This document shows positions 15,499-25,168 of a stretch of DNA of 25,168 nt, in pieces. Every line of letters starts with the position of its first letter. Position 1 is the stretch's first letter. The notes beneath the pieces are model-generated. The model worked only from the letters and a program-made list of their open reading frames with translations. It made no database searches and was not told where the DNA came from. Position numbers and translations under genes: made by a program. The stretch covers positions 1-25,168 of the IMG/VR virus record IMGVR_UViG_3300020054_000606. One strand, 5' to 3'. This DNA is from a virus.

Positions 15499-16500
15499 TT
15501 AGAGGCAGTCCGTGAGGACGAAGCCAAGGTCACCATCAACGACCTTGAAGAGGTGGCTCATGTCAGCCCAAACGTTGCGCGCGGTGAGGTCAAGCTTGTC
15601 GTACTGACCCGCCTTCATCGCCTCGAACTCAAGGTTGACTGCGGCCACAGGCATCATGCGAACACCATTACGGCTCTGGATGCTGTCTGAGCCGTGGAGG
15701 ATACCCATGAAGATGCTGTCACCTGTCCAGATGTAGCTCTCTGAGCTTGCAGCGCCAGGTACAGCGGTGTCACGACGAGCTGCGCCAACGTGAATGTTGG
15801 GGATACCAAGGATGTCACGGAGGACAGAGATCACAGCCTCATCAGAGAGGAGGAGTGAGCCACCGCCAGCCACACCCTGTGAGCTGTCACCAAAGTAGCC
15901 ACGAAGCTCACCTGAGCGAGCAAGGCTACGGAAGACCTCACGACCCAAGACGAGTGTGTCAGCGTTGAGGCCGTGAGCGTTCTCAAAGACTGTGTCCTTG
16001 AGCTGATGGAGGTAGCTCAGAGGCTCAGCACCTGCAACGTCAAACTTGCCACCGAACTGAGCGGTTGAGGTTGCGGTGTTGAAGTTGGAGCCGTCAAAGA
16101 GGACGTCAGCGGCGCGCTTCTCTTTAGCGAGCTTCATGACGCGCGCGACCTTCTTGACAATGCGCGCCTCCTCAGAACCTGGGTACTGAGAATCAACAAT
16201 GTCCTCCATCGCGATGGAGTCCTCGGCGCTGTAGATGTCACACTTGTAGGTGAGGCTTGAGCGATCAAAGCCACCAATGCGTGAGCGTGAAGCACCAGGA
16301 GCTCGCTCGAGGTCAAGCCCTGCACCCGCGCCCATGAAGTTGCGGCTGTTCTCAAGGAGCAGAGTTCCTGAGCGCTGTGGAACCTTGACGTTCTCACAGA
16401 CCTTATCAGCGATGAGTTGGCTGTCTGAAGGGACCGCCTCAGCAACCAGGCTAGAGAGAATCTCGTCAACAGGGTGGATATTACGATATGAAGAAGCCAT
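15499..16500 (-). CDS. Major capsid protein
   Basis: This 333-residue protein follows the decoration-like gene and has the strongest ribosome binding site in the window, as expected for the most abundant virion protein. The sequence contains capsid-like features: an N-terminal extended segment, an early loop rich in Gly and Arg (LERAPGASRSRIGGFD), a long helix-rich region (EEARIVKKVARVMKLAKEKRAADVL, with FDGSNF after it), and a domain with TLVLGREVFRSLARSGELRG, LRDILGIPNIHVG and SYIWTGDSIFMGIL that resembles the P- and A-domains of HK97-fold capsids. The HK97 fold is inferred from length, layout and gene order. Confidence 0.85.
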   Translation of the reverse strand: MASSYRNIHPVDEILSSLVAEAVPSDSQLIADKVCENVKVPQRSGTLLLENSRNFMGAGAGLDLERAPGASRSRIGGFDRSSLTYKCDIYSAEDSIAMEDIVDSQYPGSEEARIVKKVARVMKLAKEKRAADVLFDGSNFNTATSTAQFGGKFDVAGAEPLSYLHQLKDTVFENAHGLNADTLVLGREVFRSLARSGELRGYFGDSSQGVAGGGSLLLSDEAVISVLRDILGIPNIHVGAARRDTAVPGAASSESYIWTGDSIFMGILHGSDSIQSRNGVRMMPVAAVNLEFEAMKAGQYDKLDLTARNVWADMSHLFKVVDGDLGFVLTDCL

Positions 16501-17566: not shown

Positions 17567-18856
17567 TAGTTGCTCCTGTTCGCTTAAAGTGACCCGATCA
17601 ATCTTTGAATGAGACTGAGCAGGGCGGGGGGTTAGGGTGACAGCGAGGAGCTGGGCGTCACCCACCTTCTCACCACCATCACGAGTGAAGATTTCACCAT
17701 GTAGGTATTCGGGGGAGCTCCAAAGAACTCCACCAGCATCTTGAACTACCTTTAAACCGCGCTCATTATAAGCGGGGATGGCGTAGAGCCCATCTTCTCT
17801 GAGCTCGAGCTCAACGATCATCCCAAGGGCGTTCCCGCTCTCAGGTGGCGCGGGCGTCCCACCTTGGAAGGGTGAGGTGGCATGTTGCCAATCAATGATG
17901 ACAGGGTCAGCGTCACGGCGCTCACGATAGACCCTGACCATCTCCTCAAGGAGCTCCTTAGAGATTGGAGCGCCAATGGACTCACCACTCATCCGTGAGC
18001 TCACTTGACCCAGCGCCAAGGTCTTAAAGGGCTTACCAATGGTCAGACCCTCAGGGACATCATAAGAGGGAACAGCGCTAAGCTGTACAGCCTCGCCATA
18101 AGCCCTCAAGGTTGCTTTCTTATCTGCGGCGTTCATTTGGTTCACCACCTTTCGCGCCCATGAATAGCCAGCGTCTCCACCCCATCCGTCCCACGCTTGG
18201 CGCCCCTTGCCATAGCTCTCCCAAGTAGAGCCCTCCTTGTCGATCTCATGGCGGGTGAAGTAAGCCAGCATGCGCCTGACTGTTTCAGGGCTGAGGTTCT
18301 TACCTGCTATGAGGTCACGAGCGCGGGCTATGCCTACAGGGGTCATCCCCCTTTGGCTCTGTGGCTTCTGTGCTCGCCTCCTAAGCGCGCGCTCAGCTGC
18401 CTTCTTAGCTCCCTCAGGTGGCTTGAAGTCAATGTGACTATACTTCTGAGGTGCCATGAGCTCAGCCTTAGCCTCAGTCTTTTGAGGGTGGCCACCAGGT
18501 AGTAAGTCAAGGTCACCTGTGTAAGCTTCCTTGCGTTGACCTGTACCCACTAGCTTGAGGAAGGCTTTGACCCTGCCATATGCCCATTGATTCCTAGTCA
18601 TCCCTGGGCGATGGCTAACACTAAAAGCACCCGCGCCACGCCTGAACACAGCTTTGAGTGAGCCTAGGTCAACCTTTTTAGACTTGGCTTTGTAGCGGTC
18701 ATTGTGCTTGTCCACCATGCCCTGAAGCGCGCGCGCCACGCTCTCACTGATCTCAATCCCGCCACGCTTGCCTGAGGCTGAGCCCTTAGGGTTGGTCTTA
18801 GAGCCTTTGATCTGATCACGCTTAGGCGCTGGCGTTTGGGCTTTGGTCCTAGCCAT
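16907..18856 (-). CDS. Multidomain prohead maturation protease with C-terminal scaffold
   Basis: The product is 649 residues, from an ATG behind AGGAGGCGTAAGC; it overlaps the portal gene by eight bases. Four parts can be seen. A basic N-terminus is followed at about 68-120 by VFRRGAGAFSVSHRPGMTRN to DLDLLP, a domain found in phage proteins (DUF5872-like). At about 170-246 lies GMTPVGIARARDLIAGKNLS through WGGDAGYSWARKVV, another domain common in phage head proteases. At about 262-415 is a Mu gpI-type protease with DWQHA at 322-326 and WSSPEY around 379-384. From 431 on is an acidic coiled-coil scaffold. The protease matures the prohead and digests the scaffold. Fusion of two accessory domains to protease and scaffold is notable. 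Confidence 0.85.
   Translation of the reverse strand: MARTKAQTPAPKRDQIKGSKTNPKGSASGKRGGIEISESVARALQGMVDKHNDRYKAKSKKVDLGSLKAVFRRGAGAFSVSHRPGMTRNQWAYGRVKAFLKLVGTGQRKEAYTGDLDLLPGGHPQKTEAKAELMAPQKYSHIDFKPPEGAKKAAERALRRRAQKPQSQRGMTPVGIARARDLIAGKNLSPETVRRMLAYFTRHEIDKEGSTWESYGKGRQAWDGWGGDAGYSWARKVVNQMNAADKKATLRAYGEAVQLSAVPSYDVPEGLTIGKPFKTLALGQVSSRMSGESIGAPISKELLEEMVRVYRERRDADPVIIDWQHATSPFQGGTPAPPESGNALGMIVELELREDGLYAIPAYNERGLKVVQDAGGVLWSSPEYLHGEIFTRDGGEKVGDAQLLAVTLTPRPAQSHSKIDRVTLSEQEQLMDFENMSVDELKAALAAKDAMVKELEQKMKDLTEEAEASLAGEYESEEMAEKPSEDDKPEEMAEKSEDDKAKKMSEPATLSEKAEPNLLAEVMALRAQNTKLSERLEVIEAEKRDVERREAVSALLREGKVSPAEEGAAQRAWDVRETMPEFWTMFSERPASSAVPLNEIGHGASGEELNKATLAEKVKALATEKGLNFSEALNLFREQNPDQYNSVFS
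17372..17430. repeat. 39-base tandem repeat in the scaffold coding region
   Basis: A 20-base string at 17372-17391 recurs identically at 17411-17430, an offset of 39 bases or 13 codons. It encodes acidic repeats of EEMAEKPSEDDKP type, a flexible charged linker in the scaffold. Confidence 0.8.
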
Positions 18857-20276
18857 GCTTACGCCTCCTAATGGCGGCCTCAGCGAGCGCAGCCACGCCA
18901 CCACCTGAGCTAGCGGCGCTGACGGTTCTCTCTAGCGCAGATCGCTGTGCTTCCTCTGGTAGATCGCCAGCTCCTAGACGCTCCCTTATGGCGCGCTCTA
19001 GTTCGTTGTCGGGCGTGAGAAGCCCTGAGGTGACTAGCTGTGGAAGCATGGCTAAAGACTCTGCCAAGTCGTCTGTGTCTAGTCCTGTGTGGACTAGCCT
19101 TGGAAGCTTGGAGGGGTCTACAGGTCCATAATTCCATCGAATCAACCTTCCTATGGTTCCACCACCACGACGGTCCACGCCGCTAATAGCAGAGGCCACA
19201 ACATCACAGAGATTGATAGCAGCTCGCCTGAATACACTTAGATGCACCTCACCCACTGAGCGCGCTCCTGTGTCAGTTATGCCTAGGTTGGCGAACTGAG
19301 CCAGGAAGGCTTGGCTGATTTGGTTGTCACACTCACGGATGATGTCCAATGGACCCTGAGCATATAGGTTAGGCGTGGCGGCGTATTGGTCAAAGCTCAC
19401 CACAGGGTTATCAATGAGGTAGCTCTGCTCAGCTGCAAGGAACGCCTGAGCTTGAGCCTCTGCCTCATCAATCATGGCGTTGATGTCTGAGTCAGTCAGG
19501 CCTTGGAGCTCCGCCACCGACCTGTCCACCTTGACTCTTGGTGTGGGGACCGCCCAGCGGTCGACGCCAACACACATGAGGTTTGACACCTTCTGTTTGG
19601 TACGCCACCACCACCACACAGGGCGCAACATACCAGAGCCCTCAAAGTTAGAGCCTGTACGGTTGAGGGTGAGGAGAAGGAGCTTGTTAGCTGGGATAGG
19701 CTCAGGAACCTTACCCACGCCCACCACATGCTGAAGCACTCCGTCAAGCTGTTGGTTGTCACGGCTCAACCACCTCAAGTGAGCGCTTGGCTCACGGTCA
19801 GCGTAGAGGTCAAGCCAGACTTTGACCTTGCCCTCATAGTCAGGTCCAACCTTGTAGACCTCCTCAGCGTAGCGATAACCAAGGGGGACAAACTCAAGGA
19901 GATAGCTGAGCTGTTCCTCAAAGCTTTGGCTCATCTGCCCAGCGTAGCCATCAAGCCCAAACGCCTCATTACCAAAGCGGGCGAGCTCATCACAGACAGC
20001 GTCACCTTCCATGGCAGACTCAAAGCGCCAGGTTGCACTGAGGAGAGTTTGGCGTAGCATATGCCATGAGCGCCTGACCACAGGGTCAGTCCTCAGCATA
20101 TCCTCAGCCTCCCTCACCCAATTGAGCCCTGTGAGTGAGGCGTTGCGCTCATAGCCTGAGATCATCCCACCACTGAGCTGTGTTCCTGTGATACCTCTCA
20201 CAGAAAAGCGAGGGTGGAGCGCTCGCATATGGCGAGGCGCTTCCTCTTGGTCAGCTTGGTAGTCTAGCTTTCTCAT
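18849..20276 (-). CDS. Portal protein, DUF935 (Mu gp29-like) family
   Basis: This 475-residue protein follows the small gene after a 35-base gap; its ATG is preceded by AGAGGCTTC. Residues 50-85 (TGLNWVREAEDMLRTDPVVRRSW, then TLLSATWRFE) match the start of DUF935 portals, in which a tested 'D-P-x-V' helix precedes the 'x-x-W' strand. Residues 315-350 (ECDNQISQAFLAQFANLGI, then ARSVGEVH) match the family's 'D-x-x-I-S-x-x-L ... G-S-x-A-x-x-x-x-H' region in the stem and clip part. A run of four Trp at 221-224 is unusual. The portal forms the dodecameric DNA gate of the capsid and docks the terminase. Its place next to the protease gene is standard. Confidence 0.85.
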   Translation of the reverse strand: MRKLDYQADQEEAPRHMRALHPRFSVRGITGTQLSGGMISGYERNASLTGLNWVREAEDMLRTDPVVRRSWHMLRQTLLSATWRFESAMEGDAVCDELARFGNEAFGLDGYAGQMSQSFEEQLSYLLEFVPLGYRYAEEVYKVGPDYEGKVKVWLDLYADREPSAHLRWLSRDNQQLDGVLQHVVGVGKVPEPIPANKLLLLTLNRTGSNFEGSGMLRPVWWWWRTKQKVSNLMCVGVDRWAVPTPRVKVDRSVAELQGLTDSDINAMIDEAEAQAQAFLAAEQSYLIDNPVVSFDQYAATPNLYAQGPLDIIRECDNQISQAFLAQFANLGITDTGARSVGEVHLSVFRRAAINLCDVVASAISGVDRRGGGTIGRLIRWNYGPVDPSKLPRLVHTGLDTDDLAESLAMLPQLVTSGLLTPDNELERAIRERLGAGDLPEEAQRSALERTVSAASSGGGVAALAEAAIRRRKHG

Positions 20277-20839: not shown

Positions 20840-21071
20840 TGTTGATCTGCTTTCTAAGAGCCTCAACTTGGCCCTCAAGTTTGAGGAGCTCATCATGGTA
20901 GTCATCCAATCTCCCAATGATGTCCTCCTGCTCTTGGCGCTCGAGGTCAAAGCGCTTGTTGACGAACGTCCAAAGCATATACATGAGGCCCACAGTAACA
21001 ACAGCCACAAGGTTGCTGGGGTCTAAGACCTTCTCAATGAGGCTAGGTGGAAGGGCGGTAGGGTCAGCCAT
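20832..21071 (-). CDS. Membrane-anchored coiled-coil protein (DUF2730-like)
   Basis: This 79-residue protein has a single hydrophobic segment at about residues 20-37 (NLVAVVTVGLMYMLWTFV) followed by Lys/Arg and a heptad-patterned coiled coil (RQEQEDIIGRLDDYHDELL, KLEGQVEALRKQ). Small proteins with this layout, including DUF2730, occur in Mu-like phages next to lysis and terminase genes; their role is not established. It might help lysis or anchor something at the inner membrane. I see no second membrane segment or signal peptidase site, so a classical two-pass holin is unlikely. The start overlaps the terminase stop by one base (TAATG). Confidence 0.7.
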   Translation of the reverse strand: MADPTALPPSLIEKVLDPSNLVAVVTVGLMYMLWTFVNKRFDLERQEQEDIIGRLDDYHDELLKLEGQVEALRKQINNG

Positions 21072-22456
21072 TAGAAGCTCCTTGAGTTGGTAGAGATGCC
21101 AACCTTTCTATCTCTGCTAGGTCGGCGCCTTGGAGTATACGCTGAGCGCTGCACAGCGTCAGCCCAATAATGGAAGATGCAATCATAACGCAGAGCGTCA
21201 AGAGGGTCCTCACGCCCATCCTTCTTAGGTTGCTCTTTAGAATCCCACGCATAGCTGAGGAGCGCCTTCCTTAAACTGTTACCTATAGCGCGCTCGCCCT
21301 TGTCCCAGACCTCCTTGGTGATGAGGTAGCGGTTGCGAGCAAAGGCGCGCTTGAGTCGTTGGACCCCATTGAGGATGTCCACCCTCACAGGGTCTGTGGT
21401 GTGTCTCAGAGTCATTCCAAGGCCACCCGCTCCCACCTCCTTTGACATCTCACGGAAGGCTGAGCGCCCTGTGTGGTCTGATCTAGCCTTGCCTGCTTTG
21501 TCAGCCACTCCACTATCAAGCCATATCCGTGGCCCAGGGGCTGAGGCTTTATCTGAGCGAGGCCACGCCACCCTAAGAATCATCTCACACAGCTGAGCTA
21601 TGGTGACCTCCTGTGGGTTGATCTCATGAGCGATGATTGACGCCTCACGCTCCTCATCAAACACAATGATCAGAACGCTTGGCTTTCTGAAGCCCCAATC
21701 TATAGCCACGCGCGCGGTCATCTCCTCACGATAGGTGAAGTCATCTATCACATGACGTGAGCTGTCGAACTCTTGATAGACCAAGCCTGAGGGAGGCTTA
21801 GGCTTATTCATCACCATGGCCTCACGCTCATCCTCAGGGAGAAGCTTGGTAGCTTCAAACCACTCAGCGCTGAGGTTGTTTTGGTTTACATAGGAGGTGA
21901 AGAGGAGGGGATGGATGCCAGCTGACTCAGCCATCTGACACCACCAAGCGTCAGCCACAGGCAGGCCTACCAAGATGAGGGTGGGTGTTGGCCCTGACCT
22001 CAAGCGCCCCAAAGCCTTATGAGCTACCTCAGCGCCAAGGGTCTGACACTCATCAATGAGCGCCACGCCTGAGGTGACATTGATTCCCTCAAGGGGATTA
22101 TGTGAGGCGTCCCTTGTCCCTGGTCGATAGTAGGAGCGACAGAGGACCGCTGAGCCTGTGTGGTTGTCAGTCCATTTGTGAAGGGTGTGGTTGTAGGTCC
22201 ACCCTCTTGGAGCTAGCCACTTTTCGATCTCAGGCATTAGCACAGAGTTATAGCGTGGCGTGGTGTCTGTGATGAGGAGGGAGGTGGTCCCTGGTCGAAT
22301 CTTAGCCACAAACCACAGGGCGAAAATCAAGGAGCTCGTCTTACCTGAGCCCCATCCACAGCGCGCCGCGATGATCTTATCCTTACGCCTGATTCCCCTG
22401 ATGATCTCACGTTGGAGGTCATTGAGGATAAAGTCTTTGGATGCTTCCTCACTCAT
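21071..22456 (-). CDS. terL: Terminase large subunit
   Basis: This 461-residue protein is the packaging motor and nuclease. The ATPase domain shows a Walker A at 34-41 (GWGSGKTS), with Lys39 and Thr40; Walker B VALIDE at 131-136 with catalytic Glu136; and a likely coupling motif LVGLP near 162-166. The nuclease domain has the expected acidic triad: Asp253 in AIDWGFRKPS, Asp314 in WLDSGVADK and Asp417 in REDPLDALRYD. The basic C-terminus (TPRRRPSRDRK) may contact the portal or DNA. The start follows AGGAGCTCCC, and the upstream stop TAG lies inside that site. Length is normal and no key residue is missing. Confidence 0.95.
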   Translation of the reverse strand: MSEEASKDFILNDLQREIIRGIRRKDKIIAARCGWGSGKTSSLIFALWFVAKIRPGTTSLLITDTTPRYNSVLMPEIEKWLAPRGWTYNHTLHKWTDNHTGSAVLCRSYYRPGTRDASHNPLEGINVTSGVALIDECQTLGAEVAHKALGRLRSGPTPTLILVGLPVADAWWCQMAESAGIHPLLFTSYVNQNNLSAEWFEATKLLPEDEREAMVMNKPKPPSGLVYQEFDSSRHVIDDFTYREEMTARVAIDWGFRKPSVLIIVFDEEREASIIAHEINPQEVTIAQLCEMILRVAWPRSDKASAPGPRIWLDSGVADKAGKARSDHTGRSAFREMSKEVGAGGLGMTLRHTTDPVRVDILNGVQRLKRAFARNRYLITKEVWDKGERAIGNSLRKALLSYAWDSKEQPKKDGREDPLDALRYDCIFHYWADAVQRSAYTPRRRPSRDRKVGISTNSRSF

Positions 22457-22464
22457 GGGAGCTC

Positions 22465-23403
22465 CTAGCTCTCTTCAATTAACTTAATCAGCTCGGCTTG
22501 GTTGATTCTGAGCTTTAGCTTATGCGCTCGCTTGGTGTAGCCCCTTATCACGCCAAGCTCTGCCAGCTCCCTCAGAGCACACCTGACTGTGGTCATGCCC
22601 ACACCCTCCTCAAGCCAAGGCTCAATCTGACTGAGGAAAGTGGTTGGCTCATAAGGCCACTCAAGCACACAGTTGAGCACAGCCTTCTGAGCTTTGGTGA
22701 GCCCTGATGTCCTGATGAGCTCGATAAGCTGACCGCTGGTCATCTCAACCTGAGGAGGGAGAGCGGGCTGAGGAGGGGTGACAGGCTGAGGCTGGCTGAC
22801 CTTCTTAGGTAAGCTCACCACGCTGAAGAAGTCATAGGGGTTGACCATGCCTGACATCGCGCGGTCGAGCTCAGCCAAGGAACTCCAGAACCCGCGCCCC
22901 ATAGGGGTGTGCATCCCTCCTGTGTCCCTTCCCCATACCATGAACACGCTAAAGGGCTGAGAGTGGTGGAGAGTAGTGCTCTGTGGTGGCGCTCGATAGA
23001 TGCCAAGGGCTACCACCCACAGGGCGTCAGCGCTTTGAGCTGCCTGTTGGAGCTCAAGGAGGCGTGAGCCCATCCCCTCTAAGACCTGACCCATGACGTC
23101 ATAGGGCTTTGAGACGTCCTCAAGCTTGACGTAGCGGGTCTTGACCTCGAGCGCCGCCACCACCTCAGCGTCACGCTTGGCTAAGATGAGGTCGCAATAC
23201 TTACCAGGGTCAGGCCATTGAGGGTGATGAGCCTCAAGCGGGTGAGGTGTTTCATGGAAGTTACCCCACCGCGCGCTCTCAATGATGCTGATGAGTAAGC
23301 CCTGAAACCTGTTATGGATTCGCGTGGTGGCTGTTTTCATGTCCTGCTCAGTCCAAGCTGGGGCTAAGACAGGGCGGTTGATTTTAAGAGGGTGGTGTGT
23401 CAT
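22465..23403 (-). CDS. PD-(D/E)XK nuclease-like domain fused to a winged-helix DNA-binding domain
   Basis: This 312-residue protein lies between the two terminase genes. Residues 20-135 look like a PD-(D/E)XK nuclease: a helix with Glu42 (RFQGLLISIIESARWG), then PDPGKYCDLIL with Asp71, then AALEVKTRY with Glu86 and Lys88, which gives the D...E-x-K core, followed by a helix containing GQVLEGMGSRLLELQQ. A linker rich in Pro and Gln follows (SQPQPVTPPQPALPPQ, 203-218). Residues 222-303 look like a winged helix: LTKAQKAVLNCVLEWPYE, a recognition-helix candidate MTTVRCALRELAELGVI, then a basic wing (RGYTKRAHKLKLRI). I know no named family with this pairing. The ATG follows AAGGACAGAT. A site-specific nuclease acting in packaging or host DNA breakdown is possible, as is an autoregulator. 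Confidence 0.8.
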   Translation of the reverse strand: MTHHPLKINRPVLAPAWTEQDMKTATTRIHNRFQGLLISIIESARWGNFHETPHPLEAHHPQWPDPGKYCDLILAKRDAEVVAALEVKTRYVKLEDVSKPYDVMGQVLEGMGSRLLELQQAAQSADALWVVALGIYRAPPQSTTLHHSQPFSVFMVWGRDTGGMHTPMGRGFWSSLAELDRAMSGMVNPYDFFSVVSLPKKVSQPQPVTPPQPALPPQVEMTSGQLIELIRTSGLTKAQKAVLNCVLEWPYEPTTFLSQIEPWLEEGVGMTTVRCALRELAELGVIRGYTKRAHKLKLRINQAELIKLIEES

Positions 23404-23425
23404 ATCTGTCCTTGGCTGCTTGTAG

Positions 23426-23478
23426 CCTTCCCCATGTGGAGCTCCTTGAAGGTGTGGACATGTGAAGCATGGGGAAGG
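23426..23478. repeat. Inverted repeat with 11-base arms between terS and the nuclease-wHTH gene
   Basis: CCTTCCCCATG at 23426-23436 and CATGGGGAAGG at 23468-23478 are exact inverse copies separated by 31 bases. The spacer holds GGAGCTCC, CCTTGAAGG and ACATGT, all short palindromes. The repeat fills most of the 84-base gap, the longest noncoding stretch in this packaging region. The read-out strand has no T-run after the stem, so it is not a typical intrinsic terminator. A packaging site or operator is possible. Confidence 0.85.
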
Positions 23479-23487
23479 GTGTGAGCT

Positions 23488-23961
23488 TTAATCTTCGTCT
23501 GAGTCTATGATCTCATTAGTCTGCTCAATCATAGCGATGACCTCAGGAATCCCATCAGCCTTCTTAGCTGTGATCTCTACTTCCTTCTTATCACCATACT
23601 CCTGAGGGAATCGGCGAGCCATCATCCAAGAGATGGCGCGCCAATCCTTATCATCACTCTGTGAGATAGCCTGCATCATGTGGACCTCCATGGTCCCAAG
23701 GCCCTCATTCTTAGCTTCCTCTACAAGGCTCCTGATCTCTGGCTCCTTATCCATCCACTCATAGAGTGATGATATTGGGAAGCGAGATGAGCCACAGGCG
23801 CCTCTGATTGATTGACCATCTCTAAGGCGCTCAATGAGCTCTATGAATCTAGGGTCCTCATGCGCGCGCGCGTTAATGTTCCGTGTCTCCTTATTAAGAG
23901 CCTCAACGTCACCCGCCTCACGCGCCGCTAAACCCTTCAGATCATCTGCTGTTTTACTCAT
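23488..23961 (-). CDS. terS: Terminase small subunit
   Basis: This 157-residue protein has the features of HTH-type small terminases. Residues 38-80 (FIELIERLRDGQSIRGACG, then FPISSLYEWMDKEPEIRSLV) form the DNA-binding helix-turn-helix. Residues 107-131 (WRAISWMMARRFPQEYGDKK) are the conserved 'W-x-x-x-R-x-F-P-x-x-Y-G' hinge, and an acidic C-terminus follows (EIIDSDED), probably the large-subunit contact. It marks viral DNA for packaging. The ATG overlaps the end of the sigma gene by eight bases (ATGAGTAA), so both are probably translated together. It is separated from terL by the nuclease-wHTH gene and not adjacent to it as usual. Confidence 0.85.
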   Translation of the reverse strand: MSKTADDLKGLAAREAGDVEALNKETRNINARAHEDPRFIELIERLRDGQSIRGACGSSRFPISSLYEWMDKEPEIRSLVEEAKNEGLGTMEVHMMQAISQSDDKDWRAISWMMARRFPQEYGDKKEVEITAKKADGIPEVIAMIEQTNEIIDSDED

Positions 23962-24516: not shown

Positions 24517-24891
24517 TCAAGGCCATGAGCTCCCATCAGGTGACCAGGTGGCTGGTCCTTGGTTGCTTATGGCGTTGCGCTCGCTCGATTGCTTAGAGCT
24601 GACAAATTGCCAAGTGTCGACCACCACGTCAACGTCTAGCTGTTTAACGCCATTCTTTTCCCATGTGTTGGTCTTGAGCTTGCCTGTGATGGCGAGCGTG
24701 TCACCCTTCTTCACATGGTTGAGGATAGCCTCAGCGGTGCGCCTGAAGGCCACACAATTAAACCATTGGGTGTCCTTTTCCCCGCCCTTCTTTCGTGAGT
24801 CCACAGCCAAGCTAAACTTAGCTATTCCACCATCAGCCCCGCGCGCCTCTGGGTCCCTGCCAACGTTGCCAATCAAAATGATATGGTTCAT
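24517..24891 (-). CDS. ssb: Single-stranded DNA-binding protein
   Basis: The 124-residue product starts at MNHIILIGNVGRDPEARG, the conserved N-terminus of bacterial-type SSB; the ATG at 24891 has GGAGAGACT before it. The OB fold continues with IAKFSLAVDS, TQWFNCVAFRRTAEAIL and GDTLAITGKLKTNTWEKNG, with the conserved Trp43 and Trp76-like aromatic positions for stacking on DNA. The C-terminus ends WSPDGSSWP and lacks the acidic D-D-x-I-P-F tip with which bacterial SSB recruits repair proteins. It may therefore act only on phage DNA. It is the first gene of the leftward block and probably serves replication or recombination. Confidence 0.9.
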   Translation of the reverse strand: MNHIILIGNVGRDPEARGADGGIAKFSLAVDSRKKGGEKDTQWFNCVAFRRTAEAILNHVKKGDTLAITGKLKTNTWEKNGVKQLDVDVVVDTWQFVSSKQSSERNAISNQGPATWSPDGSSWP

Positions 24892-24982
24892 AGTCTCTCC
24901 ATCAATGGGGTTAGTGAGGAGCAGAGAGGAGGCAATATGGCCACCCTCAAGCCCTCGGTCCCTTAACACATGAGAGGCTTAC
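24892..24982. promoter_or_regulatory. Divergent intergenic region between ssb and thyX, probably with two promoters
   Basis: These 91 bases separate the leftward ssb start from the rightward thyX start, so promoters for both directions must lie here or within the flanking genes. I do not see a convincing -35/-10 pair of the housekeeping type on either strand. The region contains the ribosome binding sites of both genes. The absence of clear sigma-70 boxes would fit promoters for a phage sigma factor, but this is inference. Confidence 0.5.
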
Positions 24983-25168
24983 ATGATGGAGAATCATAAA
25001 TCAACAGGTGGAGGTGGCGTGACATTGGTTGACGTGATGGGTGACCCCCTGAGCGTGGTCAATGCGGCGCGCGTGAGCCTTGGCAAGCGCTCAAAGGAGA
25101 TGGATGAAAAGGACTGGAAGCTGATTCACTATCTGTGGATTCATGAGCACACGTCTCCTTTTAGGCAT
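24983..25168 (+). CDS. thyX: Flavin-dependent thymidylate synthase, N-terminal part (runs off the right edge)
   Basis: The first 62 codons are present. The ATG is preceded by GAGAGG; a second ATG follows directly. After a short Gly-rich lead, the protein reads TLVDVMGDPLSVVNAARVSL then GKRSKEMDEKDWKLIHYL and HEHTSPFRH, the typical start of ThyX: the V-x-A-A-R-V-S motif, and H-x-T-S-P-F-x-H, part of the FAD/dUMP-binding face. ThyX makes dTMP from dUMP with tetrahydrofolate and NADPH. The catalytic RHR motif lies beyond the edge. It is the only rightward gene in the window and likely opens an early, nucleotide-metabolism operon. Confidence 0.9.
   Translation, partial: MMENHKSTGGGGVTLVDVMGDPLSVVNAARVSLGKRSKEMDEKDWKLIHYLWIHEHTSPFRH

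Follow-up and report, generated by a model that had tools for sequence, protein, structure and literature searches.

Gene Order at the Terminase Locus

The window, i.e. the whole stretch of viral DNA that was analyzed (25,168 bp), contains a gene for a 312-residue protein between the genes for the small and the large terminase subunits. This arrangement had been proposed in a first-pass annotation made from the sequence alone, and it was verified that the open reading frame spans exactly positions 22465-23403 on the minus strand and that both neighbors are matched by profiles. In the window 8 bp separate the stop codon of the nuclease-like gene from terL. The features of the locus are as follows:

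23488..23961, minus strand: terS, Sf6-type small terminase (PF20901, E 1.8e-9; phrog_1482, E 1.4e-12)
23404..23487, minus strand: gap between terS and the nuclease gene, 84 bp, with a perfect 11-bp inverted repeat
22465..23403, minus strand: predicted PD-(D/E)XK - winged-helix protein (P0001), 312 aa, complete open reading frame, 79 IMG/VR relatives
21071..22456, minus strand: terL, large terminase (phrog_2, E 1.5e-13; alignment A3)
18849-20276: Mu-type portal (PF06074), downstream of terL
15499-16500: major head protein (phrog_1005), downstream of terL

Because the portal and the head protein genes follow downstream of the terminase genes, the region is the packaging and head module of a tailed phage. 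The record has no end repeat, while two related records circularize at 38,922 and 39,501 bp through an overlap of 127 bp between their ends, and the window therefore probably covers only part of a genome. An SSB gene (24517-24969, minus strand) and, on the opposite strand, the start of a ThyX gene (24983-25168, plus strand) lie upstream of the terminase genes. The motif GAGCTC occurs 53 times in the window, compared to about seven occurrences expected from the base composition.

The family of the 312-residue protein is undescribed in the libraries searched, i.e. no believable match was obtained in Pfam, PHROGs, NCBIfam, PADLOC or PDB sequences. A sub-threshold Pfam match to the FAM234 beta-propeller (E 0.003) was set aside, as it lies far under the cut-off of that family. 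All 79 relatives are in IMG/VR; a tblastn search of 50,697 phage records and a genome contig scan yielded none, and the same two collections yielded no relatives of TerL. A restriction-modification system was also considered and discarded, since a methyltransferase is absent among the window proteins that were scanned, which represent part of the open reading frames.

A Predicted PD-(D/E)XK Core

The N-terminal part of the protein had been proposed to be a nuclease core with four candidate catalytic residues, which are encoded at the following positions:

22810..23370, minus strand: nuclease-like core, residues 12-198 (conserved residues, AF2, Foldseek BFVD)
23278-23280, minus strand: Glu42, invariant in 37 homologues
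23191-23193, minus strand: Asp71, invariant in 37 homologues
23146-23148, minus strand: Glu86, invariant in 37 homologues
23140-23142, minus strand: Lys88, invariant in 37 homologues

Conservation was read from an alignment of 37 homologues (of the 79 relatives), the distant members of which are 38-44% identical. Each of the four residues was found to be invariant. In total, 44 of the 312 positions are invariant in this alignment, and by simple arithmetic the chance that all four named residues are among them is about 3.5e-4. Glu42 is not universally conserved: in a distantly related sister family that occupies the same locus (L266, L268, L229 and L233; hhalign 96%, E 2e-9) Asp71 and Glu86-x-Lys88 are retained, but Glu42 is replaced by Lys.

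Structure prediction with AF2 gave a pLDDT of 79.6 for the full-length protein, and a pLDDT of 88.2 and a pTM of 0.87 for the N-terminal domain alone. The predicted elements are α1 (residues 19-43), β1 (56-59), β2 (72-76), β3 (81-91), α2 (100-124) and β4 (128-136). Their order, αβββαβ, is the canonical core topology of the PD-(D/E)XK superfamily, and the predicted fold extends over residues 19-192, in agreement with the proposed nuclease domain. Members of this superfamily have a conserved Asp at β2 and a (D/E)xK motif in β3; according to the model and the alignment, Asp71 is located at the entry to β2 and Glu86 and Lys88 lie within β3. Judged from this topology, Asp71, Glu86 and Lys88 would meet in one site.

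A Foldseek comparison of the core with BFVD revealed an unnamed protein as the best match (E 8e-8, TMq 0.65), and weaker matches included herpesvirus UL24, a phage RecU (A0A1L2JY30), a RecU-type protein (A0A8S5MI41), YqaJ and a lipothrixvirus (archaeal-virus) nuclease. All matches in the PDB were weak (E > 0.03, TM about 0.2-0.35), including RecU (5fdk, rank 2), EcoRV, HincII and SPARDA, and a search with the full-length model returned nothing informative for the nuclease half. The likeness to RecU, UL24 and other viral PD-(D/E)XK proteins is thus one of the predicted core fold; no sequence similarity to the 312-residue protein was found and the genomic setting differs. We know of no winged-helix fusion for RecU, UL24 or other viral PD-(D/E)XK proteins. 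Taken together, the model and the motif support the assignment to the PD-(D/E)XK nucleases well, and catalysis is predicted.

Exchange of the C-Terminal Module

The Pro/Gln linker and the C-terminal winged helix of the first-pass annotation were both borne out by the AF2 model:

22750..22818, minus strand: disordered Pro/Gln-rich linker, residues 196-218 (pLDDT < 50), where the exchanged module begins
22468..22740, minus strand: C-terminal winged helix, residues 222-312 (AF2, Foldseek), exchanged between relatives

The winged-helix fold was predicted for residues 223-311, with Foldseek probabilities of 0.84-0.94 to winged helices of MarR, TubR, SSV1 F-93 and the H1 type. When the window was compared with the loci L011 and L012, the DNA identity was about 78-98% up to codon 200, dropped to 37-57% in codons 201-300, and recovered at the gene end into terL. 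At codon 200 itself, the identity to L011/L012 falls from 92-97% to about 40%. The exchanged segment is exactly the linker plus the winged helix. The ω values of the winged helix were 0.06-0.48, the highest of which stem from the swapped pairs, in which synonymous sites are almost saturated. In one further locus (L008:2414-3349) the nuclease gene has an internal stop in the linker/winged-helix region, which is either a natural truncation or an assembly error.

The small terminase is also mosaic. Its ends are conserved, and the DNA-binding core is exchanged among phages with near-identical TerL (window 23488-23961; L002:2751-3239; L070:3570-4076); the breakpoints are sharp for both the winged-helix and the TerS-core exchanges. 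A coupling of the winged-helix type to the TerS type was considered and rejected: L002 has TerL and both domains of the nuclease as in the window, but a different TerS core between the conserved ends. The two exchanges are independent, and therefore the winged helix and TerS need not read one and the same site.

Position and Inheritance With TerL

Related loci were divided into a close set of 44 non-redundant loci (TerL at least 79% identical) and a distant set of 66 loci (TerL less than 75% identical). In 43 of the 44 close loci the nuclease gene is located between terS and terL, and the order is terS, an optional GIY-YIG gene, the nuclease gene, and terL. The sole exception is L209, where only a short TerL piece was matched and an A4-type protein occupies that position. 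Retention of the gene in related phages, which had been named as a check on the first-pass annotation, was thereby confirmed for the close relatives. An empty site was found in none of the 44 close loci, and gene-free terS-terL junctions occur in more distant relatives only: terS and terL are directly adjacent in 43 of the 66 distant loci. The other distant loci carry different genes in the interval, several of which encode a D...ExK signature or remotely resemble the core.

In trees of 21 representatives, 11 of 18 splits are common to the nuclease core and TerL, and the core has no well-supported conflict with the TerL tree, compared to five such conflicts for TerS and two for the winged helix. 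Co-inheritance of core and TerL was also seen in a Mantel test (r 0.67; 0 of 999 permutations). The ω values of 0.03-0.10 for the core, next to 0.03-0.08 for TerL, indicated strong purifying selection on the core. Because of the fixed position, the tree congruence and the low ω, the core behaves within this clade as a stable TerL partner, and not as a mobile gene. The distance from the nuclease stop to the terL start ranges from about -49 to +10 bp across the loci, which is consistent with co-expression of the two genes.

A patchy distribution was found for another gene in the interval, which is present in 13 of the 44 close loci between terS and the nuclease gene (L002:3217-3996, L003:3523-4530, L030:799-1809, L065:2290-3111). 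It encodes tandem TerS-like helix-turn-helices and a GIY-YIG (T5orf172/MUG113) domain. Its product is probably a homing endonuclease directed against terS, and in some pairs the TerS core differs where this gene is present.

In other branches the position of the nuclease gene is held by remote relatives or by different DxnExK proteins. Besides the L266 family these include the L198/L203 family (hhalign 27%, E 7e-4) and the A4, L086 and L087 proteins, which reached scores of 27-29, compared to at most 18.5 in unrelated controls. Proteins with D...ExK that are unrelated or very remote were seen at this position where TerL is about 78% identical (L093:3904-4995, L086:3021-3620, L087:3224-4990). 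In two distant relatives the interval encodes an HNH nuclease that carries a helix-turn-helix at its N terminus (L267:2554-3336, with a Pfam match, and L280:146-937). Distant relatives also encode GHKL (HATPase_c_3) proteins about 640-660 aa long at or near their terminase genes (L191:801-2732, L204:1103-3037, L260:3929-5875, G004 about 1953-2186), and in L204 the GHKL gene directly adjoins a PD-(D/E)XK-like gene. A GHKL ATPase as a constant partner was dismissed, as it is present in three of 17 records and the nuclease in just one of those.

The Gap Upstream of the Nuclease Gene

The palindromic gap had been suggested as the site at which the protein acts. The palindrome itself is present: the 84-bp gap contains a perfect 11-bp inverted repeat with arms at 23426-23436 and 23468-23478, and the closest relatives retain it with one compensatory paired change (T-A to C-G). 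The RNA fold of the window gap is weakly better than that of shuffled sequences (z -1.75). As a general cleavage target the gap was rejected, because the repeat is absent from L060, L065, L070 and L080, in which merely 19-27 bp separate terS and the nuclease gene, and because L009 and L011 have nearly the same gap sequence and different winged helices. In other subgroups strong hairpins with unrelated sequences take the place of the repeat shortly before the nuclease gene (L033:3960-4031, L034:4029-4099, L054:3960-4089, L064:3890-4026; z -3.7 to -4.7). The inverted repeat may be an RNA element or an operator. The sequence AGGAGCTCC in the gap was also discarded as a special site; it occurs 10 times in the window versus 0.55 times expected, and thus reflects a genome-wide bias. 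No target site of the nuclease was found.

Discussion

A second nuclease next to the terminase has a precedent in phage HK97, in which the HNH protein gp74 promotes cos cleavage together with TerL (PMC9410871). What both share is an additional small nuclease whose gene neighbors the terminase genes (PMC9410871, PMC10448857), here in 43 of 44 close loci. In contrast to gp74, the 312-residue protein has no HNH Pfam match, and its predicted fold is PD-(D/E)XK instead of HNH/ββα-metal. Furthermore, the gp74 gene is located next to cos, upstream of both terminase genes and not between terS and terL, and cleavage has been shown for gp74, whereas cutting is deduced here from the predicted fold and the motif. 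The statement of the first-pass annotation that no system with this layout had been described is thus fair for this protein, but not for nucleases beside terminase genes, as HNH proteins like gp74 and T5orf172 homing endonucleases had already been described there (PMC10448857, PMC9410871). The arrangement is stable within a sizeable uncultured phage clade and, as a kind, is a variant of terminase-allied nucleases.

The domain order is the same as in a protein from a different setting. TnsA of Tn7 has an N-terminal restriction-enzyme-like nuclease and a C-terminal winged helix, and it partners an ATPase and a DNA-binding protein. No sequence match to TnsA was found in Pfam, NCBIfam or PDB sequences, and TnsA acts in transposition, whereas the setting here is packaging and no transposase was seen among the proteins scanned.

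We consider it about 45% probable that the protein is an accessory packaging nuclease partnered with TerL, which would be analogous to, and not homologous with, HK97 gp74. The N-terminal core would be recruited by the terminase and would introduce nicks or cuts into the concatemer of its own phage, the C-terminal winged helix would supply DNA recognition and be replaceable by another one, and the protein would bind TerL or TerS. The working mode would resemble that of gp74, i.e. a second nuclease that aids cutting by TerL, but with a different fold. This reading is based on the fixed position, the co-inheritance of core and TerL, the purifying selection, the invariant residues and the gp74 precedent, and also on the remote relatives or different DxnExK proteins that hold the same position in other branches. 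The strongest point against it is that many distant relatives have no gene at all between terS and terL. In addition, TerL retains an intact-looking nuclease domain (alignment A3; motif reading), the winged-helix type and the TerS type do not change together, and no target site was found. The earlier suggestion of a site-specific cutter or a regulator of packaging initiation survives in part. A nuclease-like core and a winged helix are combined in one chain, which is stable in the cassette and co-inherited with TerL, but the palindromic gap is not supported as its site, and an obligatory role in initiation is weakened by the 43 of 66 distant relatives with adjacent terS and terL, which show that a TerL of this kind can do without a nuclease at that position.

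The main rival is a domesticated homing or interference nuclease, which would cut the DNA of competing phages at a site set by the winged helix, favor its own lineage, and in this clade be stable and no longer moving. It owes this rank to the fact that the interval attracts nuclease genes (GIY-YIG/T5orf172, HNH with helix-turn-helix in L267, and several PD-(D/E)XK-like families) and that T5orf172 homing genes are most often located near terminase genes (PMC10448857). Homing endonucleases of the T5orf172/GIY-YIG, HNH and PD-(D/E)XK types in the vicinity of terminase genes also share with the present protein the combination of a nuclease with a DNA-reading module and the mosaic domains, and exchange of the reading domain would suit changing targets. 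In addition, the core weakly matches SPARDA DREN in Foldseek, which is reported to resemble the PD-(D/E)XK homing endonuclease I-Ssp6803I (PMC12205087). However, selfish homing genes are usually patchy and incongruent with their neighbors, and the patchy gene here is the GIY-YIG gene, whereas the nuclease has a fixed place, lacks an empty-site relative among the 44 close loci, and has a core that is congruent with TerL and under strong purifying selection. We regard this alternative as somewhat unlikely, and a role as packaging helper and a homing origin are not mutually exclusive (PMC10448857).

The two other alternatives are less probable. A structure-specific nuclease of the RecU or T7 endonuclease I type might trim branched or concatemeric DNA for the motor, with the winged helix binding non-specifically or at junctions. 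RecU proteins indeed rank high in the Foldseek searches of both PDB and BFVD, and co-inheritance with TerL would fit, but the PDB matches are weak, a sequence match to RecU is missing, and a junction resolver needs no exchangeable sequence reader, so that this explanation appears improbable. The protein could also be catalytically silent or have a secondary function, and regulate the terminase operon by binding the inverted repeat in front of its gene. The presence of a winged helix, and of a repeat or hairpin just upstream in several subgroups, would suit such a regulator. This alternative is nevertheless highly improbable, as Asp71 and Glu86-x-Lys88 are invariant also in the family with Lys instead of Glu42, the gap sequence and the winged-helix type do not change together, and several subgroups have no room for a repeat.

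The accessory nucleases described for phage packaging are HNH proteins. If the present protein is a fixed packaging helper with a PD-(D/E)XK core and a winged helix, the HNH role could be filled by another nuclease fold. It is tempting to speculate further, although it is rather unlikely, that it is a third terminase subunit, in which the nuclease is co-inherited with TerL and the winged-helix reader is exchangeable like the DNA-binding core of TerS. If true, the phage could switch to cutting and packaging other DNA with the same motor, e.g. to escape satellites or competitors that copy the packaging site. The natural swaps of reader domains are ready-made pairs for asking which protein sets the packaging specificity, and this would help to decide which terminase-linked nuclease genes serve packaging and which are homing genes, a question raised before (PMC10448857).
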